Shown: positions 12,880 to 34,021 of the stretch, in pieces | Layout of the letters: each line of letters starts with the position of its first letter | Numbering within the stretch: position 1 is the stretch's first letter | Assembly: GCF_000964005.1 (NCBI RefSeq) | Contig: NZ_JXYP01000018.1 | Coordinates: 124,001 to 188,000, forward strand | Source of the DNA: Williamsia herbipolensis | GTDB taxonomy: Bacteria > Actinomycetota > Actinomycetes > Mycobacteriales > Mycobacteriaceae | Direction: 5' to 3' | Length of the DNA stretch: 64,000 bases | Notes under the pieces: generated by a model | The model's input: only the letters and a program-made list of their open reading frames with translations | Databases searched by the model: none | Told to the model about the DNA's origin: nothing | Program-made: the position numbers and the translations under genes

Positions 12880-12940
12880 GGGATTACTCCGCTCGACCGT
12901 GGTCCCCCGAACGGAGCTGCACCGGTGCTAGCTTCTGCGC

Positions 12941-13579: not shown

Positions 13580-13585
13580 GACGAT

Positions 13586-13732: not shown

Positions 13733-14071
13733 GATCAACCTCGGTGTCTCGGTGGATCTCCCCGGCACTGTCATCGTATCGCCGGCACCCGACACGTCAG
13801 CGTTCCGCGGTCGGCACGCAGCGCCGCTGAGCGGAATATGTTCAGCGACAACGGTTCTCAGGGCTTGGACGGGTGCCCGGCGACATATTCGCGCGACTCG
13901 AGAATGGACCTCAACGCGCATATCCGCTGGTCAAAGCGGTATTTAGCTAGGTTAAGGCCATTTCTCCAATATCGTACAGACGCACGGCGTTAGTACGCGG
14001 CGTGGTCCTGCGTGATCGGCCGGGTGGGGGTCCCTCCCCCGGGGGGTGTGACTCGACCCCTCTCGACGACA
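13733..14071. other. Intergenic stretch, no gene supported
   Basis: About 340 bp between the 48-aa gene and the terminator of the minus-strand unit. It contains an AT-rich patch near 13,930-13,980 and a run of G and C tracts near 14,025-14,050. Short frames here lack start signals. Confidence 0.4.
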
Positions 14072-14111
14072 ACAGCCCCGACGTCCACCGGTGTGGTGGT
14101 GTCGGGGCTGT
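14072..14111. terminator. Strong hairpin downstream of the element 1 replication unit
   Basis: Perfect 11-bp arms (14072-14082 and 14101-14111) enclose a second, weaker stem. It lies 17 bp past the stop codon of the last minus-strand gene of the unit (14128), where a terminator is expected. Confidence 0.65.
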
Positions 14112-14127
14112 GTGCCGTTCTGCCGGC

Positions 14128-14376
14128 CTAGCGTTCGGTCGAGCCGCCGTCGGGTAGGTAGCGACCCATCCCGCGGTCACGGCCCGCGTAGGCCAGTGAC
14201 GCGGACGGCGGCCGTGCGTTGTCGCTCGACGGCCGGTAGTCGGAGTTCTCGACCATCGTGACCCCATCGACGACGTCGCCGGGCTGAGGGCCCGACCGTC
14301 GCTGTCGGTGCTCGTCGGTCAGGTACTTGGCGAACCCGCGGTCGGTGGTGCCACGGTCGCTCGAGCGCGCGCTCAT
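14128..14376 (-). CDS. Hypothetical protein, 82 aa, element 1
   Basis: The product is polar, rich in Arg, Ser and Asp, and has a repeated pattern: RGFAKYLTDE near the start and RGMGRYLPDG near the end. ATG 14376 overlaps the stop of the preceding gene as ATGA, which selects this start over the longer frame. It is the last gene of the minus-strand unit, just before a hairpin terminator. Family not recognised. Confidence 0.6.
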   Translation of the reverse strand: MSARSSDRGTTDRGFAKYLTDEHRQRRSGPQPGDVVDGVTMVENSDYRPSSDNARPPSASLAYAGRDRGMGRYLPDGGSTER

Positions 14377-15449: not shown

Positions 15450-15700
15450 GGTGTTGTCCTCCTGTGGGTGTCTCCCCGGTGCCGGCCGCGGGTGCGGTCG
15501 GTGGTCTGTGTGGTGCGCTGTCGGGCCTCGAACGCCGCGCAGCGGGCCGCGTAGTCGTCGTCTGTGTCGGACGGCCAGCGGTAGAGCGGGTGGAATACCG
15601 ACGTCGTCGTGGGGCGTCGGAAGTCGGTGATCATCCACCGATCCATCGCCTCTCGGCGGTCGATCTCGGCGGGCTTGGCCGCCGGTGCGGGCTTGCTCAT
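15446..15700 (-). CDS. Hypothetical protein, 84 aa, element 1
   Basis: A small basic protein that starts MSKPAPAAKPAEIDRREAMD and contains WMITDFRRP and YRWPSDTDDDYAARCAAFEA. It is linked at both ends to neighbours: its ATG overlaps the stop of a short upstream frame (ATGA at 15697-15700) and its stop overlaps the start of the 358-aa gene. Function unknown. Confidence 0.6.
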   Translation of the reverse strand: MSKPAPAAKPAEIDRREAMDRWMITDFRRPTTTSVFHPLYRWPSDTDDDYAARCAAFEARQRTTQTTDRTRGRHRGDTHRRTTP

Positions 15701-15780
15701 GTCATAGCTCCGATCGCACCGGCGTTAGTCAGGTGGTTGGTGAGGTCGGACCAGTCGTGCACGGCCACGCGGGGGTCCAC
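15697..15780 (-). CDS. Possible 27-aa leader peptide
   Basis: GTG 15780 opens a 27-codon frame (VDPRVAVHDWSDLTNHLTNA...) that ends in ATGA overlapping the 84-aa gene. AGGGG nine bases upstream could serve as ribosome-binding site, but it lies inside the arm of the hairpin at 15781-15816. A longer 120-residue version of the frame runs through the iteron repeats and is not protein-like. Translation would couple to the downstream gene if real. Confidence 0.3.
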   Translation of the reverse strand: MDPRVAVHDWSDLTNHLTNAGAIGAMT

Positions 15781-15816
15781 CGTTTCCGACCCCCTCTTAT
15801 AGAGGGGTCGGAAACG
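15781..15816. repeat. Large inverted repeat at the edge of the putative origin
   Basis: Arms reading cgtttccgacccc(c)tct and its complement are separated by only three bases; the match is 16 of 17 with one extra C. It borders the iteron region on one side and the 27-codon frame on the other. It could be an origin structure, a terminator after the repA-like gene, or an RNA hairpin hiding the ribosome-binding site described for the leader frame. Confidence 0.6.
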
Positions 15817-15987
15817 TGAAGGGGTGGGTGCGTGAAGGGGTGCGTGATGGTCGCGACCTGCGGTTTTGCGTTCACGCGTGAAGGTGCGTGAAGCAAACGT
15901 GAAGGGCACCGTGAAGCTAAACGGCCGTGATGGTCGTGACCTGCGGTTATGCCGAGCAGGCCCCGAAAACGTGAAGGGTGCGTGAAG
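15815..15987. repeat. Iteron-like region, putative replication origin of element 1
   Basis: CGTGAAG occurs eight times in the same orientation, beginning at 15815, 15831, 15877, 15887, 15898, 15910, 15970 and 15981. A longer 27-bp unit is repeated at 15843-15869 and 15926-15952 with 25 of 27 bases identical. Directly repeated short sequences beside replication genes are the usual architecture of iteron origins. The region lies immediately downstream of the RepA-like ATPase gene, between it and the 84-aa gene. Origin function is inferred. Confidence 0.6.
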
Positions 15988-16013
15988 GGGCAGACCGCTC
16001 GTGTGATGGGTCG

Positions 16014-17171
16014 TCACGACGGCGACTCCAGTTCTCCCCCGCGTGCGGCCAGGTGCCACCGCGCGGGCTGTGGATCGGCCCCGCGGGTGCCGTCTGTGCG
16101 CACCAGGACTCCGCGGTCCACGGCCTTGTCGAGCCGGCGTCGAGCTTTCTCCCGGTGGGCAGCGGTCGGTCGAGCGGTATCGAACAACAGCACCGCGGCG
16201 TCGTCGGCCGTCGCACCCTTGGCCCCGTACTCCTTCACGATCTCGAGGACGTCGTGCGCAGTGCCGGTGGTGCTCGAGGTCCCGTCAGGCGCGTGCATCA
16301 CGCTGAGCGGACCCACGTCGTGCATGGGCTGTTTGAGGTGCAGGAGGCGCACGATCGGGTCACCGGACTCGCCGTGCAGCACCACGACTGACCCCGCGCC
16401 GTTGACGATGTGGGCCGAGCCGTAGATATCGGCGAGCGACTTGGGCGCGTTGCCATCGGCGCCACGCTTCACGAGGTGGTGCAGTTCGAGAACGTTGATG
16501 CCGGCCGCGATCACCCGGCCGCGGGCTCGGTTGTAGCCCGCGCCGACGCGATCCTCCGATAGCCCCACCGCGGCATCCTTCAGAGAATCGACCACCACCG
16601 CGTCACCGGCGTCGAGACCGGCAGCGCGGCATATCGCGAGGAAGCTATCTGTGTGGGTAGCGAAGTCGGCCAGCGGCGGCCCGCGCCATACGGTCAGCCG
16701 CGCCTCCAGCACCCCGCGGTCCTCGGCCGAGAAGATTCGAGCGAAGGCGCGCGCTGCCTGCGCGGGGCGGTCCATCGCGAGCACCAGCACGCGCGAGGCC
16801 GGCCGGACGGGGAATCCGAGCACCGACGACCGGAAACCGAGGAGAGCCGAGACCAGCTGAGCGGCAATGGTTGTCTTGCCCACGCCGCTCACACCGGCGA
16901 CGATCAGGGCCTCACCCTCAGCCCACAGGATGTTCTTCCCCTCACCCCACACAGCGGTCGGGATGTCGGGGGTGTCGAGGATGAATGCCGCGCCGTCTAT
17001 CAGCTGTTCCAGGGCTTGTGTGGCCTCGTCGCTGGTGTCCGGTTCGGACCCCTGAGCGCCGAACCAGCGCTCGGCGGCACGAAGGTAGGACAGGTGCGCG
17101 GGCTCCGAGGCTGCGTCGTCGTCGAGGTCATTGGGTGCATTGTTGGCGATCCACTCCGAGAAGGTGCTCAT
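16014..17171 (-). CDS. RepA-like RecA-fold ATPase / replicative helicase (AAA_25 type)
   Basis: The 385-residue protein has Walker A GVSGVGKTT at residues 93-101 and Walker B AVVVDSLKD near residue 215. A following ELHHLVKRG and HLKQPMHD fit the RepA/KaiC-like helicase core of plasmids and integrative elements. The C-terminal 90 residues (DVLEIVKEYGAKGATADDAA) look like a winged-helix domain. It starts with ATG 17171, overlapping the stop of the primase gene by four bases. Together the two form a primase-helicase replication pair placed next to the iteron-like repeats. Confidence 0.82.
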   Translation of the reverse strand: MSTFSEWIANNAPNDLDDDAASEPAHLSYLRAAERWFGAQGSEPDTSDEATQALEQLIDGAAFILDTPDIPTAVWGEGKNILWAEGEALIVAGVSGVGKTTIAAQLVSALLGFRSSVLGFPVRPASRVLVLAMDRPAQAARAFARIFSAEDRGVLEARLTVWRGPPLADFATHTDSFLAICRAAGLDAGDAVVVDSLKDAAVGLSEDRVGAGYNRARGRVIAAGINVLELHHLVKRGADGNAPKSLADIYGSAHIVNGAGSVVVLHGESGDPIVRLLHLKQPMHDVGPLSVMHAPDGTSSTTGTAHDVLEIVKEYGAKGATADDAAVLLFDTARPTAAHREKARRRLDKAVDRGVLVRTDGTRGADPQPARWHLAARGGELESPS

Positions 17172-18235
17172 CGTCGGCCCCCATCCGAGATTCGGACGAT
17201 CGCGCCGAACACGGCGCGCAGCATCTCGGCCTCGGCCTCCTCGACCGACCGGACACCGGCGTCACCGGACGATGCGCGGCGCGACAGCTCGGCTAGGAAC
17301 GCCTCGAGCACAACGCTCAGCGCAGCGGCCGCGCCCGGGTGCCCCTCGACGCCGGTCGAGAGCACGCGCCACGTCCGAGACACCAACGTGTCGTGTGCGC
17401 TTGCCCGCATCTGCTCGGCCAGGTTCGCGCGGCCGATGGCCGCGAGCATCGCGAGGTCCGGTTCACCCACCGGCAGTGCGTCGAGGTAGGCGTCGAGATC
17501 ATCGACAGTCACCTGCGCGATCTCGACTCCGGTGAGCCGCTGCCAATCGAACGGAACGCCGGTAGTGCGTAGCCGTGGACGGCGCCAACGCAATTCGTCG
17601 ACCCATCTCTCGGGTAGCGGTGGTGGGTAGTCCTCGTCCCCGGCGATGTCCTCATAACGGCGGTCGCCGATCCGCGACGGTGGCGCGATGACGTAGTGCC
17701 TACCGCCGGCACGGAGGTCGACCCCACGGCCCGCGGTAGCTCGGAACGTCACGTCGTCCGGCACGCTGAACCAGTAGTGCAAGCCGCCGTGCGGGGTCCT
17801 GGTCGCCGGACACGCGGGGAGCGGGCCGAGCCGGCTCTCGAGCGCCGTGATGGTCTCCTCGGCGCCGTGCTTGTGCAGGTCGATGTCGATTACTAGGAAT
17901 CCCCGCGGGACAGCGATCCCGATGTTCGCGTTGGGGTGTCGTCGCCATAGGTCACGGGCGCAGTCAGCGTCGGTGGTTGCGGCGTGGAACCCGTTGCGCG
18001 TCGCGGGCGCCTTGCCGTCGACCACGCAGGGAAACACTGGGGTGCCGGCGATGGCATATGCGACTGCCTGGCCGGCGAGGTCAACCTCAGCCGCGAGGTC
18101 TGCGGCGACAGTGGCCGGTTGTCCGAGCCCGGCGGTATCCTCGATGCCAGCGGTGTGGTTGAGCGCCGTTGCGGACGGGGACCCGTCGCAGTCGGGGTGA
18201 CTGCGGCGGGTTTTCTCGTTGTGAGGCATGTGCAA
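17168..18235 (-). CDS. Bifunctional DNA primase/polymerase (PrimPol)
   Basis: The 355-residue protein has the Prim-Pol domain in its N-terminal half: GTPVFPCVVDGKAP opens the fold and FLVIDIDLH supplies the metal-binding D-x-D. PHGGLHYWFSVP holds the conserved His, and GVDLRAGGRHYVIAPPS closes the active site. The C-terminal part is helical and probably a primase accessory domain. PrimPols start replication of many actinobacterial integrative elements and phages. Two ATG starts (18235, 18229) are possible. It lies 107 bp downstream of the HTH gene and overlaps the ATPase gene. Confidence 0.87.
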   Translation of the reverse strand: MHMPHNEKTRRSHPDCDGSPSATALNHTAGIEDTAGLGQPATVAADLAAEVDLAGQAVAYAIAGTPVFPCVVDGKAPATRNGFHAATTDADCARDLWRRHPNANIGIAVPRGFLVIDIDLHKHGAEETITALESRLGPLPACPATRTPHGGLHYWFSVPDDVTFRATAGRGVDLRAGGRHYVIAPPSRIGDRRYEDIAGDEDYPPPLPERWVDELRWRRPRLRTTGVPFDWQRLTGVEIAQVTVDDLDAYLDALPVGEPDLAMLAAIGRANLAEQMRASAHDTLVSRTWRVLSTGVEGHPGAAAALSVVLEAFLAELSRRASSGDAGVRSVEEAEAEMLRAVFGAIVRISDGGRR

Positions 18236-18342
18236 CGCTTTCTGTTACGCGGAACGGCGACAATGGTTTTCGCCGATGGGGTGACGCTCACGCGGTTGCC
18301 GGACGCGAGCGGTAGAGCTATCTCGGTTGTTGCGGGTCGAGG

Positions 18343-18543
18343 TCAGCTATTCGTCTGCTCCAACCACAGTTCGACGTCGAGCGGCCGATACATGACGCGC
18401 CGTCCGACGTGAAGGCAGCGGGGACCGCGTCCGAGGGTCTGCCAGTTCGAAAGCGTTTGCTCTCCGACTCCGAGGTAGGCAGCGGTCTCTTTTCGACTCC
18501 AGAGTCGGTTGGTGTCGGTTGGTACATGCGTGGTGGTCGTCAT
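18343..18543 (-). CDS. Excisionase-like helix-turn-helix protein
   Basis: A 66-residue MerR/excisionase-type winged helix: the recognition unit is WSRKETAAYLGVGEQTLSNW and the wing RVMYRPLDVELWLEQ. Proteins of this size next to a tyrosine integrase normally act as recombination directionality factors or element regulators. It is divergent from the integrase gene and heads the minus-strand replication unit. Confidence 0.8.
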   Translation of the reverse strand: MTTTTHVPTDTNRLWSRKETAAYLGVGEQTLSNWQTLGRGPRCLHVGRRVMYRPLDVELWLEQTNS

Positions 18544-18948
18544 GGGTCAGCTCTCTTGTGGGTAACTCGGCTCTACGTCTTGTATGAACCTCAGGTAAGC
18601 ACCCCGGGTGGATTTTCGCTACCCCGTATCGGCCGTAAAGCACTGTCGCAGAATCGAATTGGTAAGCTTTGGCGTCAAAGCTTACAACTCTGTGGCACAA
18701 CATGATTCGTTAGTGGGCACCATTCTGACTCCCTCGGGCGCGTCCCATACGGGCAGTTCACACGGCGTTTTTGAGACCTCGTTCGCGGTGCGACAACAGA
18801 GCGACGCGACGCGCACATGACCCGCGCGATGCCCGAACAGAAACCCGCAAGGTAGACCCGGAGGAATGTTTCGTGTCTCGGCGTGTCCCGCGGCGTGTCG
18901 TTGCCTTCTTCGAGTGACGTCTTAACATCGTGCGTACTCTGACTAACC
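18544..18948. promoter_or_regulatory. Divergent control region between xis-like and int genes
   Basis: About 400 bp with clearly lower GC than the flanks and no supported gene. It should contain the promoters for the minus-strand replication unit and the plus-strand integrase. A perfect palindrome (see 18662-18685) lies in the middle. Confidence 0.5.
18662..18685. promoter_or_regulatory. Perfect 9-bp inverted repeat, candidate operator
   Basis: GTAAGCTTT and AAAGCTTAC are separated by six bases (ggcgtc). An exact palindrome of this size in the control region between divergent regulator and integrase genes suggests binding of a dimeric regulator. No dedicated repressor gene is seen in the element apart from the HTH protein at 18343-18543. 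Confidence 0.6.
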
Positions 18949-20268
18949 GTGAGCACAGAACAGACGAGCAATCGACCGCGCCGGCGACCGGGCAACGTCC
19001 GAGTCTTCGACGCGCATTACAGCGACTATCGGCGGCGGGTGAAGCGAGCGAGCGGGTGGCACGTCGTCGACGGCCACGAGGTGCCTAAGCGCGAGCGGTG
19101 GCAGGTGCGCTACGTCGACCTCGACGGCCGCGAGCGCTACGAGACATTCGAGGCCAAGGGCAAAGCACAGGCACGCGCGGACACGCTCACCGCCGAGCTG
19201 ACGGACGGTTCGCACGTCGACCGACGAAAGTCTCAGACCACCGTCGCGACCGTCGCCGAGTCGTGGTCGGCGTCGCTGGTGTCCAAGGCGCAGAGCACTA
19301 GAGCGAACTATGCGTCGGTGCTCGCCAACCACGTACTACCAGCGTGGGGGAGTCGGGAAGTTGGCTCGATCACGCACGACGACGTCACACGGTGGGTTGC
19401 TGAGCTGACGCGCACCCCGCGCCGCGGATCGACGTCGGAGACACTGTCACCCGCGACCGTGCACAAGGCGTGGATCGTGTTCTCCGGTGTGCTCGATTAC
19501 GCGGTCGCTGACGGCCGTCTCCGCGCAAACCCTGCCGCCAAGGTCGAGCTACCCAAGATCACGTCGAGCGCTGACGTCTATCTGTCGCACGCGGAGGTCG
19601 GGCGTCTCGCCGCGGCCGCGGACTATCTCTACGCAAGTCGCTCCGATCGCCGGCGCGCCGGTCGCGACCGCGTAGGTGAGAAGACAGTCGACCTCGACCC
19701 CACGGGGGTGCCGATCATCCCGGATGCTGAGCCCTCCCCAGATGGTCTGCTGATCCGCTTCGGTGCGTATTCGGGGCTGAGGGTGGGGGAGTTGTCTGGC
19801 CTGCAGGTGCGTGACCTCGACCTCGAGCGACGCACTATCCATGTTCGACGAGCCAATACAGAGGTGGCCGGCCGGCTCGTCGCCGGTCTGCCCAAGGGTG
19901 GCAAGGTCCGGTCGCTCGACCTCGTGCCGCACCTCGTCGAGGATCTCCGCGCGCATATCGCGGGTAAGGCGCCGACTGACACTGTGTTCTGTGGTGCGAC
20001 AGGTGCGCCGCTGCGTCGCGGCAACCTCAACAAGCGCGTGATCGGGCCGGCCGCTGATCTCGCCGGCCTCGACGGCGTCACCGCGCACACGTTGCGTCAC
20101 ACCTACGCGAGTATCTGCGCGTCGGTTGGGGTCCGGATAGAGATTGTCTCCCGGTGGATGGGGCACGCCTCGGTCGCGATCACGCAACGGGTCTACGTCG
20201 GCCTTTTCGACGAGGATCTTTCGGCGTCCGCGGACCTCGTCTCCGCTGCGCTCGCGGCCTCGAAGTGA
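18949..20268 (+). CDS. int: Tyrosine integrase of element 1
   Basis: A 439-residue phage-type integrase. The N terminus (RWQVRYVDLDGRERYETFEA) is an arm-binding AP2-like domain, followed by a SAM-like core-binding domain (about 90-190) and the catalytic domain. Catalytic residues are visible in SGLRVGEL (Arg), HTLRHTYAS (His-x-x-Arg), MGHAS (His) and QRVYVGLF (Tyr nucleophile). GTG 18949 is used; there is no clear ribosome-binding site. The gene ends 140 bp from attR in tRNA-Val(GAC), the usual arrangement for tRNA-directed integrases. Confidence 0.93.
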   Translation: MSTEQTSNRPRRRPGNVRVFDAHYSDYRRRVKRASGWHVVDGHEVPKRERWQVRYVDLDGRERYETFEAKGKAQARADTLTAELTDGSHVDRRKSQTTVATVAESWSASLVSKAQSTRANYASVLANHVLPAWGSREVGSITHDDVTRWVAELTRTPRRGSTSETLSPATVHKAWIVFSGVLDYAVADGRLRANPAAKVELPKITSSADVYLSHAEVGRLAAAADYLYASRSDRRRAGRDRVGEKTVDLDPTGVPIIPDAEPSPDGLLIRFGAYSGLRVGELSGLQVRDLDLERRTIHVRRANTEVAGRLVAGLPKGGKVRSLDLVPHLVEDLRAHIAGKAPTDTVFCGATGAPLRRGNLNKRVIGPAADLAGLDGVTAHTLRHTYASICASVGVRIEIVSRWMGHASVAITQRVYVGLFDEDLSASADLVSAALAASK

Positions 20269-20318
20269 CGTCAAAGTCGAGCCGAGGACGTCGCGGTAGT
20301 CGGCGGTATCTGGACCTC

Positions 20319-20338
20319 GTGCGTGCAGAGTGCGTGCA
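20319..20338. repeat. Candidate integrase arm-type site, right copy
   Basis: Exact, same-orientation copy of 12860-12879, about 70 bp inside attR. Confidence 0.6.
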
Positions 20339-20357
20339 CGCGACCTCGGGTAGCAGA

Positions 20358-20392
20358 AGAGGCGGCCCCCGACACTCTCGGAAACCGCCTCT
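20358..20392 (-). terminator. Element-supplied terminator for tRNA-Val(GAC)
   Basis: 8-bp arms (20358-20365 and 20385-20392) with a 19-nt loop lie 19 bp downstream of the 3' end of the minus-strand tRNA gene, within element 1. It would replace the native terminator at 12648-12670 that was displaced by integration. Confidence 0.55.
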
Positions 20393-20407
20393 CAACTGGT
20401 CTAACTC

Positions 20408-20452
20408 TGGTGCGCGATACTGGGATTGAACCAGTGACCTCTTCCGTGTCAG
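20408..20452. repeat. attR of element 1 (45 bp), within tRNA-Val(GAC)
   Basis: Identical to 12685-12729. It restores the 3' half of the tRNA gene, so integration does not inactivate the tRNA. Confidence 0.95.
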
Positions 20453-20918: not shown

Positions 20919-20993
20919 GGTCCCGTGGCTCAGTGGAAGAGCGTCCCGTTCACACCGGGAAGGTCGCTGGTTCGATCCCAGCCGGGACCACCA
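20919..20993 (+). tRNA. tRNA-Val (CAC), CCA encoded
   Basis: Plus strand, divergent from the Gly-Cys-Val cluster. The acceptor ggtcccg pairs with cgggacc, and the anticodon loop TTCACAC gives CAC. The discriminator A at 20990 is followed by an encoded CCA. The 3' part is the attL core of element 2. Confidence 0.96.
20969..20992. repeat. attL of element 2 (24 bp), in tRNA-Val(CAC)
   Basis: Identical to 34158-34181. It covers the T-arm loop to the CC of the encoded CCA, so the tRNA stays intact after integration. Confidence 0.93.
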
Positions 20994-21061
20994 GGTAGAG
21001 GCGTTATTCGCCCGGTTCGGGCTATTACCGGGCCGTAGAGCGCCGCTCGAAAGGTGGTCGG

Positions 21062-22000
21062 ATGCCCGCTCACACTCGGGTCCGCCGCCTGCTTGAGCGA
21101 AGTGGTCGGATGCTCATCGACTTAAGTGGCGAGTCGAACCGGCACTTCACCTTGCGCCAGACTCGTCGTGACGAGACGGCCGAGGAGCGCAACATTCGCC
21201 AATACGTCGAGGCTCAGGGGTACGGGGGCGACGATGAGGTTGAGTCGGTCGCGCTGGTAAAACGTCACCGCTTGCTCGAACGCAGCTTCGAGGTGTTCGA
21301 CGTGCGTTGCGTGCGCAGTCGTTGGTGGGTGATCACCAACATGACCAATCTGTACAGCCAAGATGACTTCATCTCCGCCGACTACGCCTTCTCGTTCCAC
21401 CTCGGTTTGATGACGCGGCTGTGGGAACGCGACCGCGGCGAAGTCGCCCCCGAGGCGCGCTCGGTGAGTGAGCGGTCATGGCGCAAGCTCGACGACGCTG
21501 GCGAGGCGTGGGCGGCAGCGCGAGACACCGAGGACTTCCAGACGGTCGGCGTCAGGTTGCGCGAGGCGATGATCGCGCTCGTGTCGGATTATGCCGACGA
21601 TGACTGGGTTAGCGATGTGACCGATCGCCCTCAGCTGGCCAACGTCAAGGGCTGGCTCGAGGTGTTCGCCGGCAAGCTGTCGACCAAGCGGCGGCAACGC
21701 GCTTACCTACGGGGAGTCTGGGACAGAGCGTGGGATTTGGTCGTGCACCTGCAGCACGACTCATCCGCGCGAGAACCTGACGCCGCGATCGCGTTCAATG
21801 CGGTCGAGCACGCTCTCGAACTGTTCTCCCATATGCGCCTTTACATCGAGCGGGATAGCCCCGTTGAGTGTCCTCAATGCGGGTCTCGTCGGTTCTCGGA
21901 GACAACCGACTGGACCGACGATGAGCGCCTTGAGGTGTGGCAGGAGTGCTCAGCTTGCGGCTACGCCACCGAGCGAAGCGAGTGGCCGCTCAGCACCTAA
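21062..22000 (+). CDS. Zinc-ribbon protein of unknown function, 312 aa (defence-type position)
   Basis: ATG 21062 follows AAAGG at good spacing; ATG 21110 lies in a repeated gtggtcggatg context and is an alternative start. The N-terminal two thirds are mixed and then helical (FQTVGVRLREAMIALVSDYA, AYLRGVWDRAWDLVVHLQHD). The C terminus is a treble-clef-like zinc ribbon with CPQCGSRR and, about 25 residues on, CSACGYATE. I do not recognise a named family. The gene is the first inside attL and is followed in the same direction by the ApeA-like gene 82 bp later, so both may form a defence cargo unit. Confidence 0.65.
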   Translation: MPAHTRVRRLLERSGRMLIDLSGESNRHFTLRQTRRDETAEERNIRQYVEAQGYGGDDEVESVALVKRHRLLERSFEVFDVRCVRSRWWVITNMTNLYSQDDFISADYAFSFHLGLMTRLWERDRGEVAPEARSVSERSWRKLDDAGEAWAAARDTEDFQTVGVRLREAMIALVSDYADDDWVSDVTDRPQLANVKGWLEVFAGKLSTKRRQRAYLRGVWDRAWDLVVHLQHDSSAREPDAAIAFNAVEHALELFSHMRLYIERDSPVECPQCGSRRFSETTDWTDDERLEVWQECSACGYATERSEWPLST

Positions 22001-22082
22001 GACGGCGGCCCAGGGAGCCGCATCGGTCGACCGACTGAACTTGCCGCGTTCTGCCCGACGGTGAGGTAGCCGCCGGTTTACG

Positions 22083-23318
22083 GTGCCTGACATGGAGCCA
22101 TTCAAGGCCGATGGCCGCTTCTGGATCGCAACGACACACGACCGTGCGGCCGACGGGCAGCTCAGCTGGGGGCCTGGCGCCAAGGCTGAGCTGGTCCTCG
22201 CGATGCGAGTCATCGACGAGGTGGCCGCCCCGATCGAGCACTCGAATGGCACCACCACGATCATCCAATCGGGCGACCCGTACAAGATCGTGGAGGACGG
22301 CACGCCCCGAGTCCTGCACGGCGACACCGACCGAGGGCCGGTCACATGCGTCGATGCCTACCTCGGCCCGCCGAGCTTCGGCAGCGTAGCCACGGCGTTC
22401 GGTCAGCGGTGGGACGTCCAGACGCTTATCGTCGGGGCGCACCTGCCGGGCCACGACACAGCGCTCGACGCCGTGCGGTTCGTCCTCGACACCCCGGGCT
22501 GGTGGTCTCACCTCGCCGACGCCGAGACGGTCACCACCGCCGCTGGCGAACTCAGCTGCTCGCGCGACAGCGAGGGGGTGGTCTCGTTCGAATACCGACC
22601 CGTGGCGCCGCTGACGATCCGGTCGGCCGACCGCAGCCTGCGCTCAATGCAGACAATCGCGATGCTGGCGCTGGGCGCCGAGCTGACACTTCTCACGGTC
22701 AACGTGCGGGCTGCCGGCGCCCCAGAGTGGCTCATAGTGCTGACGCGCGATCAGGACCCGACTGAGACCTCGTGGCCGAGCCCCGACGACCTGCTCCCGC
22801 CGAGCTGGCTGACGTTGCAGCGCCTCGCCGACTGGCTCGCTCTCGAAAAACGGATGGACGGGCTCGCGGCGGCTGTCGCGTTCCCACCCGAGGCGGTCGC
22901 TGTCCAGGTGAGCGCGCTGGTCTCTGGCTCGCTCATCGAGGGCATCCACAAACGACTGGTCACGGACGATGACACCTACTTCGTCGATCGCGCCCGAGAC
23001 CTCTACGCCCGAGCGACCGCGATCCTGCCCGAGCCCGACCTCACCGGGTCTGTCGGCGCTGGCTGGGCTGAGCTGGTCAGGCAGGCCCGGAATGACCTCG
23101 CACACCACAACACCGGCCGCCCGTTCGAGAAGGTGTTTTGGGACTGGCTCATCGCAGAGTCGACGACGATGTGGGTGTTGCGCGTCTGTCTGCTAGCTGA
23201 GCTTGGTCTCGACGCCGCCGAGATGCAGGCTGCCGTCGATGATCACCAGCGCTACGGGTTCTACCGCGCCAACCTTGAGGCCCACATCCGCGAGCGCGAC
23301 GCGATCTCGGCACCGTAA
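22083..23318 (+). CDS. ApeA-like HEPN protein (putative anti-phage effector)
   Basis: The 411-residue product resembles ApeA-type abortive-infection proteins in layout. The N-terminal domain opens with GRFWIATTHDRAADGQLSWGP, similar to the GxWW...GxLxFxP start of the ApeA N-terminal domain. The C-terminal helical domain carries RNDLAH at residues 336-341, the R-x4-H HEPN ribonuclease motif. ApeA of E. coli is a single-gene anti-phage system. No membrane segments are seen. GTG 22083 or ATG 22092 may be the start; neither has a well-placed ribosome-binding site. The family assignment is by pattern recognition. Confidence 0.68.
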   Translation: MPDMEPFKADGRFWIATTHDRAADGQLSWGPGAKAELVLAMRVIDEVAAPIEHSNGTTTIIQSGDPYKIVEDGTPRVLHGDTDRGPVTCVDAYLGPPSFGSVATAFGQRWDVQTLIVGAHLPGHDTALDAVRFVLDTPGWWSHLADAETVTTAAGELSCSRDSEGVVSFEYRPVAPLTIRSADRSLRSMQTIAMLALGAELTLLTVNVRAAGAPEWLIVLTRDQDPTETSWPSPDDLLPPSWLTLQRLADWLALEKRMDGLAAAVAFPPEAVAVQVSALVSGSLIEGIHKRLVTDDDTYFVDRARDLYARATAILPEPDLTGSVGAGWAELVRQARNDLAHHNTGRPFEKVFWDWLIAESTTMWVLRVCLLAELGLDAAEMQAAVDDHQRYGFYRANLEAHIRERDAISAP

Positions 23319-23321
23319 GAC

Positions 23322-23526
23322 TCAGGCCGACCCGTCGAGGACGTCTGGGCCGCCGGCGGCGGGGAGGTCGCCGCGGTAGGTGACGGCCTCGCAGCGGCGG
23401 CACACCCAGGTGCGGCAGGGGGACTGGGCGCTGATTGGCCCAGCCGACGAGGTGTGTTCGGGGCGGACGCCAGTCACTACCGCAGACAGGGCAGCGGCGC
23501 GGCTTCCACTCGATGACGCGGGACAC
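23322..23526 (-). pseudogene. Frameshifted small zinc-ribbon gene (candidate)
   Basis: From GTG 23526 one minus frame reads VSRVIEWKPRRCPVCGSDW and continues to about 23,440. The adjacent frame then takes over as CRTWVCRRCEAVTYRGDLPA and stops at 23322. Joined, they would form a 68-residue protein with two Cys pairs typical of a zinc ribbon. A single-base shift between roughly 23,410 and 23,450 is needed. It may be a true pseudogene, a programmed frameshift or a sequence error. Confidence 0.35.
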
Positions 23527-23647
23527 GCGGGTGACCTCCTCGGCCCGCGACGAGTGAGCCACACGGTAGCGACGGCGTCCGACAACGCAGTCCGGCGGGC
23601 TACGCAGCGTTCCGTAGCGCTGCACCCTCGTTTCGTAGCGTTCGGGC

Positions 23648-23959
23648 ATGAGCACATCACCGACACCACAGCCCACCGGCCGAACCTCTCTGTCTGCCAG
23701 CGCAGATCAGGGGGGCGTCGCGCACGCCGACACCGTCAGCCACCCTCGCTCGCGCGACCCGCGGTCGTGGTCTGCACGGCTGGCGGTGCTCGCCAGCCGC
23801 GGCGAGACGACGGGGGAGCGGGTCGACGAGGCCCGCTCCGCACTCGCCTGGTGGGCGGTCTCGCGCCGTCTGACTGCTGAGGTCGAGTCCGGTCGGATGA
23901 CCCAGGCGAACGTCGACCGCGTCCTCGACCAACTCGCCGAACTTCCCCCGCCGCGTTAG
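23648..23959 (+). CDS. Hypothetical protein, 103 aa, paralogue of the 27650-27910 product
   Basis: The C-terminal 60 residues are helical (WSARLAVLASRGETTGERVD, EARSALAWWAVSRRL). They align by eye with the 86-aa protein encoded at 27650-27910, which reads RLAALASHG, then VEARAALAFHRVKRA at the same spacing. The N-terminal 40 residues are low-complexity. It is the first gene of the plus-strand unit that leads to the large terminase. Function unknown. Confidence 0.6.
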   Translation: MSTSPTPQPTGRTSLSASADQGGVAHADTVSHPRSRDPRSWSARLAVLASRGETTGERVDEARSALAWWAVSRRLTAEVESGRMTQANVDRVLDQLAELPPPR

Positions 23960-23999
23960 CTGCGGCGTCGTCCCAACACGACCCCCCCGAGGAGCCCCG

Positions 24000-24272
24000 A
24001 TGACGAACCGAACCCAGATCGAGTTCGAGATGCCCGACCTGACTGACCCCGACCCCGCGGCCGAGGCGGTTCTCCGCGAGCTGGCCGAGGTGCACCAGCC
24101 GATGGCGTGGCGCGAGTTGCGCCCGTTGTTGAAGGGGCTCAGTCGAACTCGGCGGCAGGCGCTGCTCGGTCGGCTGATCGGGGAGGGGCGCATCACCTGG
24201 ACCTGCCTGCGCCCTGGCGCCGACGTGGTCATGATCAACTCGCGGCCGATCCTCGAACGCGCGGTCGCGTGA
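24000..24272 (+). CDS. Small winged-helix-like protein, 90 aa
   Basis: ATG 24000 has GGAG at correct spacing. The sequence EAVLRELAEVHQPMAWRELR, then RRQALLGRLIGEGRITW, has the pattern of a winged helix (helix-helix-recognition helix-wing). Its stop overlaps the GTG start of the large terminase gene. Position suggests a DNA-binding partner of packaging or a regulator, but this is inference. Confidence 0.6.
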   Translation: MTNRTQIEFEMPDLTDPDPAAEAVLRELAEVHQPMAWRELRPLLKGLSRTRRQALLGRLIGEGRITWTCLRPGADVVMINSRPILERAVA

Positions 24273-25822
24273 CCACTGCTGCGGTGCGCTCGATGGTCGC
24301 CGCGGGTGCGCTGGCTGCTGCTCGTAGTCGGTTCATGCCCGACAACCCGGCTGAGCTGGCGCGCAAGTTCGAGCCCGGCTTCCGGGTGACGCCGACGATC
24401 CGGTTGCTGTCTGATGTCGCCGTGCGGTCGGTGACCGAGCCCGACCAGCGCGACATCGTGACCACGCCGCCGCGCACCGGAAAGTCGCGGCTGCTGGCGG
24501 TGTGGACCACGGTGTGGGCCCTGCGGCGCGACCCTGACGCACAGGTGGTGCTGGTCAGCTACGCCGACGACCTCGCGCAGTCGCACAGCCGCGAGGCCCG
24601 GGCGTTGATCGCCGAGCACGGCGCGGCCCTGGGGATTGCACTCGCCGCCGACAAGACCGCGGTGGGCAGGTGGCGGGTCGAGGGACGACGAGGTGGGCTG
24701 CTGGCGACCGGAATCAATTCCGGCGTCACCGGGTTCGGTGCCGACGTGCTCATCCTCGACGACGTCGTCAAGGACGCCGCCGAGGCAGACTCGGCCGCAC
24801 ACCGGCGGCGTGTCGTCAACGAATACCGCTCCACGCTCGCGACCCGCGTCCACCCCGGCGGCTCCGTGCTGCTGGTGATGACGAGGTGGCACGAACGCGA
24901 CCTCGCCGGGGAGCTGCTCGAGGCCGAGCCCGACGTGTGGACGCACACGAACGTCCCCGCGGTCGCCGAGGCCGGCGTCCCCGATGCGTTGCGGCGTGCG
25001 CCCGGCGTCGCGATGGTCTCGGCGCTGGGCTACACCGCTGACCACTTCGCCGCCCAGCGCCGCACGTCTGGCGAACGCGCCTGGGCGGCGCTCTATCTCG
25101 GTGTGCCGTCGGCGCCATCGGGCGGGCTGATCAAGGGGCACTGGCTCGACAGATGGCGGGTGGCCGCGGCCCCGGTCGCCCCGACGATGACCGTGGTCGC
25201 CGTCGACCCCGCGGACTCAGGGACCGGGGACGCCGCGGGAATCGTCGCCGCCTGCCTCGGGCGCGACGGTGTGGTCTCACTCGTCGCCGATGCCTCGGCG
25301 CAGATGACATCAGATCAATGGGCGCGCCGCGCCGTCGAGCTCGCGATCGAGCTGCAGGCCAGCGAGATCGCGGTCGAGTCGTTCGCCGCCGGGACCACGT
25401 ATCGCCGTGTGGTCCTCGAGGCGCTGGCACGGTACCGCCCCCAGCGGCCTATCCGGGTCACCGCCTGGCCGCCGAAGGGATCCGGTCGCGGTCGCGGCGA
25501 TGCCATGGCGCGCAGCTCGCCGCTGCTGCAGGCCCTCGAGACCGGAACGTGCAGGATCGCCGGGCACCTGCCGGCATTCGAGGAGGCCGCGACGCGGTGG
25601 CAGTCAGGGCAGCACCAGCCCGACGCCCTCGCCGCCGCGGTGATTGCCCACGACGTCTGCTCGCACGCCGCGCGGTCGGGTTCTCGGATCATCGCCCCGA
25701 CAGGGCGACTCGGCGACGGTCGCGGGCTCGGCGGCCCGCTCGCGCGCCGGGTCAGCGACGGCCCGCCGGTGGCCAGCCTCGACGCTCACCGCCGCCGAAT
25801 CACCGATGGGCGCGCCGGATGA
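24269..25822 (+). CDS. terL: Phage terminase large subunit
   Basis: The 517-residue protein, read from GTG 24269, has both terminase domains. ATPase: Walker A TPPRTGKS (residues 66-73) and Walker B VLILDDVVKDAAEAD (about 165), followed by the coupling segment LVMTRWHERDLAG. RNase-H-like nuclease: VVAVDPADSGTGDAAG, IAVESFAAG and HQPDALAAAVIAHD supply the acidic residues. The gene appears intact. TerL packages phage-type DNA into procapsids. It overlaps the upstream 90-aa gene (GTGA) and the downstream Cys-rich gene (ATGA). The small terminase candidate lies 3 kb away on the opposite strand, which is unusual. Confidence 0.93.
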   Translation: MTTAAVRSMVAAGALAAARSRFMPDNPAELARKFEPGFRVTPTIRLLSDVAVRSVTEPDQRDIVTTPPRTGKSRLLAVWTTVWALRRDPDAQVVLVSYADDLAQSHSREARALIAEHGAALGIALAADKTAVGRWRVEGRRGGLLATGINSGVTGFGADVLILDDVVKDAAEADSAAHRRRVVNEYRSTLATRVHPGGSVLLVMTRWHERDLAGELLEAEPDVWTHTNVPAVAEAGVPDALRRAPGVAMVSALGYTADHFAAQRRTSGERAWAALYLGVPSAPSGGLIKGHWLDRWRVAAAPVAPTMTVVAVDPADSGTGDAAGIVAACLGRDGVVSLVADASAQMTSDQWARRAVELAIELQASEIAVESFAAGTTYRRVVLEALARYRPQRPIRVTAWPPKGSGRGRGDAMARSSPLLQALETGTCRIAGHLPAFEEAATRWQSGQHQPDALAAAVIAHDVCSHAARSGSRIIAPTGRLGDGRGLGGPLARRVSDGPPVASLDAHRRRITDGRAG

Positions 25823-26230: not shown

Positions 26231-26785
26231 TCAGCCGAACAGGCCGAGCACGGTCCTGCGCAGCTGCTGCAGCTCGGCGGTGACGTCACCGGTCGCGGGC
26301 AGCGCGAGAACGGCACGGACGTCGCCGTCGTCGGCGAAGCCGTTTGCCTCGATCCTGGTGGCGAGGTCGGTGATGAACGGCCACAGCACTTCCACCGAGG
26401 CGCGGGCGTCGTCGAGCTCCGCCCCACCGTCGAGCGCGTAGTCCCGCGCCTGTATCACCGCCCGGTCGTCGAGGTGATCGGCGAGCGCGTCGCGGACGTG
26501 GCTCAGCGACATCGACGGCCCGCGCAGGAACCTCTCCTCGGCCAGTGGGCCCGCCCACGTTGCCGACAACGGCGCCTGCCCGTACCCGTCGGCGGTGATG
26601 CCGAACGTGCACCGGCCGGCGTGCCCGCTCGCGTCACCGGCCGCCACGAGCTCGGCGCGTTTGATACGGGTCACACCGGTGGAAACGCCCAGGACGCGGC
26701 CGACGAGGGCGTGGCCCGCCTCGTGGAAGCTCGTGGCCATACGCTCGAGCAGCGCTGGGTCCACGGTCGGTTCGGTGATCGTCAT
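26231..26785 (-). CDS. FtsH/M41-like zinc peptidase domain protein without AAA domain
   Basis: The 184-residue protein carries HEAGH at residues 21-25 in the context SFHEAGHALVGRVLGVSTG, which matches the peptidase domain of FtsH (M41). It also has GPLAEERFLRG and a later DYALDGG segment. There is no AAA ATPase module and no membrane helix, so it would act as a stand-alone peptidase or be inactive. AGGAG at good spacing supports ATG 26785. In a satellite genome it could process a phage or host protein; this is inference. Confidence 0.72.
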   Translation of the reverse strand: MTITEPTVDPALLERMATSFHEAGHALVGRVLGVSTGVTRIKRAELVAAGDASGHAGRCTFGITADGYGQAPLSATWAGPLAEERFLRGPSMSLSHVRDALADHLDDRAVIQARDYALDGGAELDDARASVEVLWPFITDLATRIEANGFADDGDVRAVLALPATGDVTAELQQLRRTVLGLFG

Positions 26786-26933: not shown

Positions 26934-27653
26934 TCAAAGGGCGCCACCGCGTTCGTCTGCGGTCAGCTCGACGCCCAGGTCGGTGAGGGTCGCTCGGGCC
27001 TCGTCGCGGTGACGGCGTTCGCGGTCGGCGATGAGGTCGGTGGTGCCGCCGCTCTGCTCGGCGCGGTCGAGTGCGCGGCTCAACGCGGTGCACGCAGCGT
27101 CGAGGTCGCGCAGCGGCTCGAGTACCCGCTCGGAGGCAGACAGGGCGCCGCGAGTCGCGCCCGGCGGCAGAGCGCGGACCAGCAGCGCCGCCAACGGGTC
27201 CGAGGCCGACGCGGCGTGGTCGGTCAGAGCCTCGGCCCACGTTCCGTCCGCCATGGCGCCGTCGGCGATCTGCGGGGCCGTGGGCCGCCGGTGCAGCTGC
27301 AGCAGTGCGCGCCGCGCAGACGCCGCCTGCTCGAACGGCAGGCCCGCGGTGCGGTGGTGGGCGTCTGACTCGGCGAGAAGGCGGGCGACGACGGCGACGA
27401 GTCCGTCCACGGCGTCGGCGACGTCGTCGATCGCTGCGCGCACAGCCCGGGAGGATGTCGCAGCTGCCGCCCGATCGGCCAGCGGGTCGAGCGAGGCGGC
27501 CACCTCGAGGGCCAGGTCGAAACCTCCGTCGAGGACAACGGTCAGGTGCGCGCGGCGGCGCTCGCGTTGGGCGGCCTGGCGCTCAGCGGGGGCGTCGGGC
27601 AGCGCGGGCTCGGCGAACGAGAACACCCGCCGTCGTCGCAGTGCGCGCGTCAC
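26934..27653 (-). CDS. Hypothetical helical protein, 239 aa, element 2
   Basis: Read from GTG 27653, which overlaps the stop of the preceding gene (GTGA). The protein is Ala/Arg-rich and predicted all-helical (VRAAIDDVADAVDGLVAVVA, LRDLDAACTALSRALDRAEQ). It has no recognisable catalytic motif. The longer frame reaching 27,956 is shadow sequence over the 86-aa gene. It is not a recognisable capsid or portal protein. Confidence 0.6.
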   Translation of the reverse strand: MTRALRRRRVFSFAEPALPDAPAERQAAQRERRRAHLTVVLDGGFDLALEVAASLDPLADRAAAATSSRAVRAAIDDVADAVDGLVAVVARLLAESDAHHRTAGLPFEQAASARRALLQLHRRPTAPQIADGAMADGTWAEALTDHAASASDPLAALLVRALPPGATRGALSASERVLEPLRDLDAACTALSRALDRAEQSGGTTDLIADRERRHRDEARATLTDLGVELTADERGGAL

Positions 27654-28138: not shown

Positions 28139-28618
28139 CTAGGTCTCGGTGCCCAGCTCGGCGACCCGCCGCTCGATTTGCGCCCTCAGCTCCGGCGGCA
28201 CCCTCGGCCCGCTGGTCTGTGCGGCGAGGTCATCGGCGGCCAGCACGGCCCGCAGCCGGTCGGCGCTGGTGGCCGGCGCCGCCTCGGCAGGGCCGGGCTC
28301 GGTTGTGCCCGGGTCGATCTCGATCACGTCGGCGACCGGCTCGGGCTCGGTGGTGCCCTCGCGCAGGCGTGCGACCGCGGTCCACTCGGACAGCTCGTCG
28401 CCACCGATGCCGGCGAGCCCGAGCACCTGACGGGCGACGTCAACCTGTAGCGGCCACAGCGCATCCTTGGGGCCTATCACCCGCCCGAACAGTTCTCGAG
28501 CCTCAGCGGCGAACTCAGCGGTCAGAGTGGCGGGGTCGAGCCTGCCCTCGGCGGCGTCGCGGGCGACCGCCATGCCAGCTTTGACGACGTCGTCGGTGGT
28601 GACGGTGTGGCTGCTCAT
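28139..28618 (-). CDS. Hypothetical phage-type protein, 159 aa
   Basis: The N-terminal half is folded-looking (GPKDALWPLQVDVARQVLG, GGDELSEWTAVARL). A Pro/Glu/Thr-rich linker follows, then a helical C terminus (PPELRAQIERRVAELG). ATG 28618 overlaps the stop of the small terminase-like gene. Position directly behind the terminase small subunit suggests a packaging-linked role; family not recognised. Confidence 0.6.
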   Translation of the reverse strand: MSSHTVTTDDVVKAGMAVARDAAEGRLDPATLTAEFAAEARELFGRVIGPKDALWPLQVDVARQVLGLAGIGGDELSEWTAVARLREGTTEPEPVADVIEIDPGTTEPGPAEAAPATSADRLRAVLAADDLAAQTSGPRVPPELRAQIERRVAELGTET

Positions 28619-29091
28619 GAGTCCATGACCTCCGCGTCGATGATCGGCGCCGGCCGAGTCTGGGCGAGGGCGAGCAGGTCGGCCTCGGCGCGATCGAGAA
28701 TGGCCGAGGCGGTCTGGGTCACCTGAACGTCATGCTCGTGACGCTCGGGTGCGTTGGCGCCGACGAGAGTGGCCCACTGACCGAGGTTGCGGTGCACCTC
28801 GCGGCTCAGCTTGACCAGAGTCTCGTCATCGCGAGAACGGGCGGCCTCAGCGAATCGGCCGACGAGGACTGACCGGACGATCCGCAGCGTCTCGCTGGCC
28901 GAGCGCCGGACCTCATCGACACCCTCGGCGGGCTCAGCACTCACGAACCGCCGCACCGCGACCTGCGCGGCGCCGCGGCTCTGGAACCCCTCGGCGTCGG
29001 CGATCTCCTGCCACGTTCGCCCGAGTGACCGCAACCGGTGCGCGCGCTCGGCACGCCGCCGACTGTCCTCACGACTCATGCTCGGTGCCAT
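28615..29091 (-). CDS. Small terminase subunit-like HTH protein
   Basis: The N-terminal helix-turn-helix (LGRTWQEIADAEGFQSRGAA) is followed by long helices (ASETLRIVRSVLVGRFAEAA, ETLVKLSREVHRNLG) suited to oligomerisation. This is the usual build of small terminase subunits of phages and satellites. ATG 29091 with GGAG close upstream is preferred over a TTG start at 29109. The G/C-palindrome region at 29,200-29,365, just upstream, could contain the packaging site. The large subunit is encoded on the other strand. Confidence 0.65.
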   Translation of the reverse strand: MAPSMSREDSRRRAERAHRLRSLGRTWQEIADAEGFQSRGAAQVAVRRFVSAEPAEGVDEVRRSASETLRIVRSVLVGRFAEAARSRDDETLVKLSREVHRNLGQWATLVGANAPERHEHDVQVTQTASAILDRAEADLLALAQTRPAPIIDAEVMDS

Positions 29092-29109
29092 GTCTCCATG
29101 GTGTCTCAA

Positions 29110-29373: not shown

Positions 29374-31941
29374 TCACCCCGCCGAGGGGGTCGCCAACGA
29401 CCCACCCGCAGGGGTCAGCTTCACGAGCCCGTCGGCGTTCCGCTCGACCGCCCCCTCGTCCTCCAGCCCCTCCAGCGCCGTGTCTGCGATGCGGCGCAGG
29501 TTCGCCTTGAACTTCCGCTTGCGCAGCCCCTCAGTGCCGTTCCACAACGCCGGGCCGTCAGCCTCGGCGAGGTAGCGCAGGATGCGGGTCCGCACCCTCG
29601 TCAGCTCATCCGCCCGGCCGTCGAGGGCCAGAGCGCCCGCGACCTGTTCACTGATGCGCTTCTCCGTAAGGCGCTCCTCCTCGGCCTCGACACGATCCCG
29701 CCGCCATTCCAGTGCGGTCGTGTGTATAGCAGCCGAGGTGCTCATCAGCATCTCGGCGAGCTCGACGTCGTCGCGGTGGACCACGGTGCGCCCGGGGTCG
29801 CAAAGGATCACGAGCAGCGCCGCGAGCCGGGCAACCGTCGCGGGCCGCTGCGCCTGCATCGGATCCGCGTTGCCGCCGTCGACCTCACCGCGTGCGCGAG
29901 CCAACGCCGCAGACCGCACCCACTCACACAGCTCGTCGTCGTACGTGAGGGGCTCCGCAGGCAGCGTCACCGCCAGCGGCCCGGGGTGAACCGGGGCGAC
30001 GTCGGGGATCGACGGGTCGGTCGCCGAGACGAACAGGAACCGCTGGGGGGTGCCGTACTCCATCTGTTCCGGCGTCGACAGCGCCGCGATCGCTTCGAGC
30101 TGGAACCCCACCTCCAGCCCCACGCTGTAGACGCGCACCTCGCGGCGCCGCTCGACGGATGCGTTGCCCTGGCCTAGCAGCTTCCCGCTCCACGCCGACC
30201 GCAGCGTCGGTCCGATGTCCTGCCCCCGTTTGTTGTCGATGATCCCGGCGACCAACGAGGCGCCCTCATCGCACTGCATCAGTAGGTTGTGGACCACCTG
30301 GCACCGTGCGGACTTGGCCGCGAGGCGATCCGGGTCCGGCCCCATGAACGCCTCCGCGACGCCGGGACCCGTGCCAACAGGCATCTCCTTGAGCGCCCGC
30401 CCGCCAGCGATCAGCCGACTGTCGAGCGGGTCGACGGGGGCGGCGTTGATCAGGTTCTCGGCCTCGGTCGCGGCGCTCGACTTGCCCGTACCGCTCGACC
30501 CGACGACGCCGACGAAGGTGTTCAGCGGCAGCGGACTCTTGACCCCAGTTCGGACGCGCACGACCGGGTCCACGCTGGCACTCAGGCGCGCCAGGACGAC
30601 CCCCAGCACCGCGTCGGCGCTGTTGACCCCCGAGTGAGCCGCAGCCCGGATGTGGGCCAGCGCAGGCCGCGCCGCCCAGAACTCCTCAGGCAGCCGGGTG
30701 TCCGCACGTCCTCGCAACGAGGGCTTGCCGGCGATTTGCGCAGCAGGGGGCGTGATTTTCCCGTGCAGCGAGCCGGGGAGCGTCAGCACGTTGCTGTCGT
30801 CGTGCAGGTCCTGGTCGGTCATAGCCGCCCCGATCTGGTGGTCGTAGTACCCCGCGGCGACGGCGTCGAGCCGGGTGATGGTGGTCTTGCCCTTGGCATA
30901 AAGCCGTTCAAACGGCTCGACGTCGTGATCGGTCCACAGGTGAAGCGGCGGGTCGATGGAGTCGCGGCAGAGGGTGCACCCCCGTTCGTGACCGACGGCA
31001 GACTTGGGGGAGGCGTGGGCACCCGGGGCGGTGAACGTCGGGCAGCCGCATGACTCGGGGCGCGGCCTCTCGGTCCACCCCAGCGGCTCCAGAATCTCCG
31101 CCCACGTCACCGACGCGCCCCACTGCTCGATGCGATCAGCGGTGGGGCTGTTGGCGTCGAACGCCCGGTCGGCCCGTGCAGCTCGCGCCGAGCCGTGCGC
31201 GCTTATCCGCTCGTGCAGCCAGTGGGGAAGCATCTCGACCTTGCCGGCCGTCTCGTACCGCCCCTCGGGGCGCACCGAGGGCGGCATCAGGACATAACTG
31301 CCCGACCACATGACGGCGTACTTGCCCTCCGGGTCGGTCAGCGACCCTGCTGCGCCGGGCAGTTCAACGTCCTCGGGCACGACGAACCACCAGTGACCGC
31401 CGTCGCGGTGGACCCACCCGCCGTGCTCATCCCGGGCGCCCGGCGTCCTGACGGTCGGAGATGCATCCTCGGTAAGCCCGGCGGTAGCGCGGAACGCTGC
31501 GGCCTGTTCGGCGGTGTCGCAGTCGACGACGACGATCCGCGACGGTCCTACGGCGACCGCGATGTTCGTCGGTGTCTGGCTGCCGTGGGCCTCGACGTGG
31601 GCGTCGAGGAAGCCGCTCAGGTGCGCGGGGTCGTCGGTCGCGAGGTGGACCCCGCGACTGGCCTTGCGACGTTGCCAGCCAACGTCTCCCGCCGCGCGTG
31701 CGGCCTCTTGGGCGGCCTTGTCCGCCGCGCGCCGCTGGCCGGAACCGCGCAGGTCGGCGGGCATCTTTGTGCCGGGGTGGCAGAACAGGATGTGCGCTCC
31801 CTCATCTGAGAGAGCATTGAGCTGGACGCGCACATCGTCGATGTCCCCCGGCTCGGGTGCTTCCGCGAGCAGCTGGGTCAACGCCTCGGCGCGCGAGACC
31901 GCGCTAGCGGCAGAGTGTTTAGTATTCTGGTCGAGAGTCAT
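29374..31941 (-). CDS. PrimPol-helicase fusion, 855 aa
   Basis: The N-terminal third is a primase/polymerase domain: NIAVAVGPSRIVVVDCDTAE holds the D-x-D, and DGGHWWFVVP the conserved His. The middle has zinc-like cysteines (CGCPTF, CTLC). The C-terminal half is a DUF3987-like ATPase with Walker A GVVGSSGTGKSS near residue 480 and a late winged-helix segment. Such fusions replicate phage satellites and small phages. It is divided from the HTH genes by a hairpin at 31968-31993. ATG 31941 has no clear ribosome-binding site. Confidence 0.85.
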   Translation of the reverse strand: MTLDQNTKHSAASAVSRAEALTQLLAEAPEPGDIDDVRVQLNALSDEGAHILFCHPGTKMPADLRGSGQRRAADKAAQEAARAAGDVGWQRRKASRGVHLATDDPAHLSGFLDAHVEAHGSQTPTNIAVAVGPSRIVVVDCDTAEQAAAFRATAGLTEDASPTVRTPGARDEHGGWVHRDGGHWWFVVPEDVELPGAAGSLTDPEGKYAVMWSGSYVLMPPSVRPEGRYETAGKVEMLPHWLHERISAHGSARAARADRAFDANSPTADRIEQWGASVTWAEILEPLGWTERPRPESCGCPTFTAPGAHASPKSAVGHERGCTLCRDSIDPPLHLWTDHDVEPFERLYAKGKTTITRLDAVAAGYYDHQIGAAMTDQDLHDDSNVLTLPGSLHGKITPPAAQIAGKPSLRGRADTRLPEEFWAARPALAHIRAAAHSGVNSADAVLGVVLARLSASVDPVVRVRTGVKSPLPLNTFVGVVGSSGTGKSSAATEAENLINAAPVDPLDSRLIAGGRALKEMPVGTGPGVAEAFMGPDPDRLAAKSARCQVVHNLLMQCDEGASLVAGIIDNKRGQDIGPTLRSAWSGKLLGQGNASVERRREVRVYSVGLEVGFQLEAIAALSTPEQMEYGTPQRFLFVSATDPSIPDVAPVHPGPLAVTLPAEPLTYDDELCEWVRSAALARARGEVDGGNADPMQAQRPATVARLAALLVILCDPGRTVVHRDDVELAEMLMSTSAAIHTTALEWRRDRVEAEEERLTEKRISEQVAGALALDGRADELTRVRTRILRYLAEADGPALWNGTEGLRKRKFKANLRRIADTALEGLEDEGAVERNADGLVKLTPAGGSLATPSAG

Positions 31942-33999: not shown

Positions 34000-34021
34000 G
34001 GGGTCTCCGAGGAATAGTGGC

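Follow-up and report, generated by a model that had tools for sequence, protein, structure and literature searches.

A diverged ApeA-type protein as proposed anti-phage cargo of a satellite-like tRNA-Val element in an actinobacterium

The tRNA-Val element and its genes

The window, a stretch of 64,000 nucleotides from Williamsia herbipolensis, holds a 13.2-kb element inserted at a tRNA-Val gene. Its parts are listed below, with the evidence for each in brackets.

20919-20993, + strand: tRNA-Val (CAC), the integration target (tRNA call)
20965-20992, + strand: att repeat on the tRNA side, at the 3' end of tRNA-Val (repeat search)
21062-22000, + strand: cargo ORF, 312 aa, with a C-terminal CxxC zinc ribbon (weak zinc-ribbon matches; plasmid relatives)
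22083-23318, + strand: ApeA-family protein, 411 aa (PF18862, 8.7e-15; alignments; model pLDDT 85.7)
24000-24272, + strand: small ORF preceding the large terminase, likened to a small terminase by its position only
24284-25822, + strand: large terminase (PF03237, 4.9e-13; phrog_38, 7.5e-86)
26231-26785, - strand: conserved satellite gene, HExxH, M41/M50-like (alignment, Pfam scan)
26934-27626, - strand: conserved satellite gene (conservation in related elements)
28615-29109, - strand: phrog_645 gene, "RNase E" by its PHROGs name (E 2.3e-16)
29374-31941, - strand: primase/polymerase (PF09250, 2.3e-14; phrog_906, 3.4e-118)
32833-34083, - strand: tyrosine integrase of the element (PF00589, 4.2e-13; phrog_1)
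34154-34181, + strand: att repeat on the integrase side (repeat; empty site in congeners)

The two att repeats are identical at 27 of 28 bases, and the integrase lies adjacent to the second. The site was empty in 7/7 congeners, with the flank gene directly after the tRNA (the contig of one congener, L089, starts within the tRNA). Elements with related integrases were found in the same tRNA-Val of two other genera, bounded by a 27-bp repeat at 983 and 14315 in L117 and by a 25-bp repeat in L115. Site-specific integration with an integrase of its own, one of the marks of a satellite, is present, in line with the earlier note's description of the gene as satellite cargo.

A second mark of satellites, packaging and replication genes without a full set of virion genes, is present as well. 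The start of the large terminase was taken from the gene call, its ORF opening at 24107. No Pfam family at E<=1 and no PHROG below E 0.07 was found for the small ORF upstream. Pfam and PHROGs recognized no capsid, portal, or tail gene among the scanned ORFs of the element, and the longer ORF covering 26934-27626, considered as a capsid, had no Pfam or PHROG match. The HExxH M41/M50-like protease pattern of 26231-26785 was aligned in seven elements. Together, the sequence data support an integrated, phage-satellite-like element. As a satellite, it may be mobilized by a helper phage.

Among described elements, the closest likeness is to mycobacterial candidate PICIs, which PMC10654092 presents as integrase-flanked phage-like elements, with three of the four mapped tyrosine-integrase examples at tRNA genes. 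These PICIs are defined by a major capsid gene, whereas the window element carries a large terminase and no recognized capsid.

A second integrated element lies immediately to the left, at window positions 12685-20452. It is bounded by an identical 45-bp repeat at 12685 and 20408 (tRNA-Val GAC) and contains an integrase (18949-20268), a Prim-Pol (17168-18229), and an AAA protein (16014-17171).

Family assignment of the 411-aa protein

The ORF at 22083-23318 has a GTG start, with an alternative ATG at 22092, three codons in, and its GC content per codon position (0.70/0.49/0.84) is coding-like. The following parts were distinguished in its product.

22110-22520, + strand: ApeA N-terminal domain, PF18862-matched part, residues 10-146 (Pfam; hhalign of the N-domain family)
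22815-23306, + strand: compact helical HEPN-type domain, residues 245-408 (AlphaFold2 models; hhalign 96.1%; Pfam HEPN_Apea below cut-off)
22938-22949, + strand: conserved E286-G-x-H289 on helix 274-292 (alignments of 9 and 15 proteins)
23088-23105, + strand: R336-N-x3-H341, closing helix 322-341, the predicted active-site motif of the RNase (alignments, model)

The earlier note had proposed an ApeA-type N terminus and a C-terminal HEPN domain and had named a profile search as the check, the outcome of which was divided. With Pfam ApeA_NTD1 (PF18862), the N terminus scored 55.4 bits (cut-off 25.5), residues 10-146 covering positions 3-118 of the 271-position profile. In contrast, the match of residues 328-378 to HEPN_Apea (PF18739) reached 18.4 bits (E 0.0031), below the cut-off of 24.4. 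The HEPN_Apea profile had no match in the genome from which the window comes, and across the phylum it matched in 7/396 genomes, the window's own not among them. When 10 relatives were scanned, all 10 passed the ApeA_NTD1 cut-off and seven passed that of HEPN_Apea. The 411-aa protein itself had no match in NCBIfam or PHROGs, and none in PADLOC even at E<=10.

Profile-profile comparison covered both domains. Three actinobacterial HEPN_Apea proteins from the phylum search served as the canonical set and were split into N and C parts, and the family profiles held 13 rows for the N part and 15 for the C part. By hhalign, the N domain aligned with its canonical counterpart at 97.1% (E 7.2e-11) and the HEPN part at 96.1% (E 3.4e-9), RNDLAH falling on RNYFIH, whereas controls with swapped domains (N versus C parts) gave 0.1%. 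Because other relatives contributed to these profiles alongside the window protein, the test speaks for the aligned family.

A protein search in 298 genomes of the order found matches in 4, and a PF18862 search in 200 genomes found matches in 12, the own genome being included in both counts. One match of the protein search coincides in contig and position with the locus L077, which places the host in the GTDB-type family of Mycolicibacterium wolinskyi, though in a different genus. Relatives were located at 14 genome-contig loci and in three plasmid records, the best plasmid relative being that on Rhodococcus jostii pRHL1 (L019; 36% identity over 95% of the protein). The top identity to any aligned relative was 33 to 38%, and the tree, with several long branches, left the position of the window protein without resolution. 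No match was obtained by tblastn against phages, and viral contigs searched with the single protein gave no pattern match, a search that detects close relatives only.

The earlier note had also pointed to R-x4-H at residues 336-341, which was confirmed as RNDLAH, the sole such motif in the protein. In 5,000 shuffles of the protein, R-x4-H arose in 52.5% and R[NDH]x3H in 7.9%. Since about half of the shuffles contain it, R-x4-H alone was rejected as evidence; the motif by itself is at chance level, and its evidential weight comes from conservation. R336, H341, E286, and G287 were invariant in 15/15 aligned proteins, and H289 nearly so. In the alignment of nine proteins, G11, G25, L27, G80, E286, G287, H289, R336, N337, and H341 were invariant in all nine. 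R[ND]x3H was present in 23/23 ApeA-type proteins checked, a count that includes the window protein and excludes eight other PF18862 loci.

Those eight, unaligned loci were inspected by eye. RNx3H was seen in three (L006, L007, and L016) and was absent from the other five (L009, L011, L014, L017, and L018), so the PF18862 family is not uniformly of the R-x4-H type. The proteins of L009, L011, L014, and L017 bear Y-N-x-x-K-H in place of R-N-x3-H and are perhaps a separate ApeA_NTD1 branch with a different active site.

An AlphaFold2 model built on a 15-row alignment had a mean pLDDT of 85.7 and a pTM of 0.82, and the HEPN part modeled alone reached a pLDDT of 91.2 and a pTM of 0.88. In the model, a beta-rich N domain with strands across the first 220 residues is followed by a C domain of eight helices (245-258, 261-266, 274-292, 300-314, 322-341, 348-372, 378-386, and 389-408). 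Helix 322-341 ends with H341, and helix 274-292 carries E286. According to PMC3710099, the HEPN motif ends helix 3, helix 2 bears a conserved acidic residue, and the two helices are separated by a variable insert; the predicted layout around E286 and H341 fits this description. The structure prediction proposed by the earlier note placed R336 and H341 at one helix end of a helical C domain, but the structural comparison stayed non-significant. Foldseek against the PDB returned no match at E<=0.001, whether the query was the complete model or its HEPN part, and the model had no significant match among viral models. The full model ranked RnlA third (E 0.1) and an HEPN toxin 13th (probability 0.66), and with the HEPN part, HEPN entries took ranks 1, 5, 9, 13, and 21 among the best 50 (best E 0.77). 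These non-significant ranks are no more than suggestive of an HEPN fold. A sequence search of solved structures with the 411-aa protein found none at E<=10. An alignment-based search gave 15 weak matches, and the best of them (E 0.003), to a coiled-coil-type protein, was set aside as chance.

In general, the Pfam match, the alignments, and the two-domain profile comparison support the assignment of 22083-23318 to a diverged actinobacterial member of ApeA, in agreement with the earlier note. The protein shares with ApeA the domain order, the N-domain profile, RNx3H, and the E-G-x-H helix, and both domains match by hhalign. It differs in an identity of at most 33 to 38%, in an HEPN score under the Pfam cut-off, and in a shorter Glu-Arg spacing.

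Proposed mode of action and competing readings

ApeA as a defense system reportedly goes back to Gao et al. 2020. PMC7699616 summarizes that study, and HEPN domains bearing the motif are described as metal-independent RNases in PMC3710099. Here, we propose that the diverged ApeA is cargo of the satellite-like tRNA-Val element and acts as a phage-sensing HEPN RNase, a reading to which we assign a probability of about 0.8. From the family, the protein is probably a phage-triggered HEPN RNase; the dimer, the trigger, sensing by the N domain, and growth arrest or an abortive outcome are inferred from the same source. The beta-rich N-terminal domain would hold the protein inactive and detect some sign that a phage has infected the cell. 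Deoxydinucleotides derived from degraded DNA may be the trigger, as the title of a 2026 ApeA preprint, and only the title, suggests. Two C-terminal HEPN domains would then pair into one metal-independent RNase site formed by R336 and H341, which N337 and E286 may assist. Such a site would cut RNA, possibly tRNA, so that translation would halt and no phage would be made.

The compact form of the HEPN domain raises the question of whether RNase activity has been lost. E286 and R336 are 50 residues apart in the window protein. Among 22 relatives, the Glu-to-Arg spacing was 81 to 104 residues in 19, making the window protein 31 to 54 residues shorter in this stretch, and 49 to 50 in L019, L021, and L010; these three are not independent, because the C-terminal part of L021 is nearly identical to that of L019. 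The short stretch and the HEPN_Apea score below the cut-off would both be expected of a degenerate HEPN domain. However, the conserved E, G, H, R, N, and H are all retained, the domain is predicted with a pLDDT of 91, and the pRHL1 relative, which has this spacing of 50 as well, clears the HEPN_Apea cut-off at 45.1 bits. Thus, a family member that has lost its RNase activity is highly improbable. The pRHL1 protein resembles that of the window in this spacing as well as in sequence, but it is encoded on a large plasmid, and the tree gives the pair no supported grouping.

The active RNase might instead be one half of a two-gene module, with the zinc-ribbon protein of 21062-22000 as its partner, antitoxin, or sensor. 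The two ORFs share the + strand and one cargo interval, with 82 bases between them; their GC contents (0.63 and 0.68) are lower than that of the element overall (0.70), and no terminator-like site was found in 20980-24300. A sigma-70 consensus scan of the same interval found no promoter-like site, a point against the main reading. In contrast, the two families never occurred together: relatives of the zinc-ribbon protein were absent from 31 ApeA loci (14 of them only 3 to 4 kb long), and ApeA was absent from nine loci of zinc-ribbon relatives (three only 3 to 4 kb long). The plasmid relatives also accompany other genes, and the two-gene system was rejected for this lack of co-occurrence, a partnership now appearing improbable. 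A third reading keeps the ApeA-type protein but has it serve the satellite itself, through interference with its helper phage or a toxin role in element retention, and not host defense in general. The gene does sit on a satellite-like element with a terminase, and satellite hotspot systems, according to PMC9122126, engage in competition between mobile elements. Nevertheless, an integrase-model match was present at only 3 of the 17 loci of relatives, and the family is therefore not bound to satellites. The third reading, which overlaps with the preferred one, is considered unlikely.

Relatives of the unannotated zinc-ribbon protein were found in 15 plasmid records, on actinobacterial and proteobacterial plasmids. 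Three of the six plasmid contexts viewed had defense-type neighbors, namely, N-6 methylases, a restriction endonuclease, and QatC/QatD, in one context each.

The cargo end in related elements

The earlier note had placed the gene beside attL and had called this the usual place for anti-phage cargo. The att repeat bears out the end of the element, but the ApeA gene is the second gene from attL, with 21062-22000 intervening. The second statement was compared with six related elements having both ends defined (L054, L055, L058, L115, L117, and L056, the last bounded by a 30-bp repeat with no tRNA); L053, L057, L059, L060, L061, and L052, whose ends are undefined, were dropped. The cargo end, opposite the integrase, was picked after inspection of the elements, and the counts are descriptive. 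Recognized defense families occurred at this end in two of the six, a suggestive pair in one, and none was recognized in three, which upholds the statement only in part. L058 has an XhoI-type endonuclease, an Eco57I-type methylase, and DUF4238. L055 has an HTH/M78 protein with RmrA-type PADLOC matches (best E 1.5e-17) and a DUF4411 protein. L117 has a DUF4238 protein and, in addition, a 320-aa ORF in which inspection by eye suggests an HNH-like CxxC pattern and which has no Pfam match, and L054, L056, and L115 have regulators or unknowns only. The PADLOC scan covered the cargo ends of L054, L055, L056, and L058.

In satellites of another type and from other hosts, variable cargo is likewise confined to one short interval; unlike theirs, the cargo end of the window element lies opposite the integrase, next to att. 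We tentatively suggest, as a possibility with the odds against it, that a widespread group of satellites in actinobacteria holds an interchangeable defense interval opposite the integrase, occupied in part by families that current tools miss, such as the compact ApeA (its HEPN domain perhaps regulated differently from that of canonical ApeA), the zinc-ribbon protein, and, in other elements, DUF4238.

The protein looks like a remote, compact form of ApeA, an anti-phage protein already known, with nothing new in principle, and the accepted view of how ApeA works stays unchanged. With this finding, ApeA is also represented on an actinobacterial satellite-like element; an open-access literature search found no paper on ApeA in satellites, which is not proof of absence. 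It also indicates that the compact HEPN form escapes profile-based tools (PADLOC and Pfam HEPN_Apea) and that one end of this group of related elements is a place to seek candidate defense genes. The DUF4238 proteins, at 14078-15031 in L058 and 12262-13233 in L117, lie at the cargo ends of elements from different genera. In L053, outside the cargo count, a C5 methylase lies close to the conserved genes.
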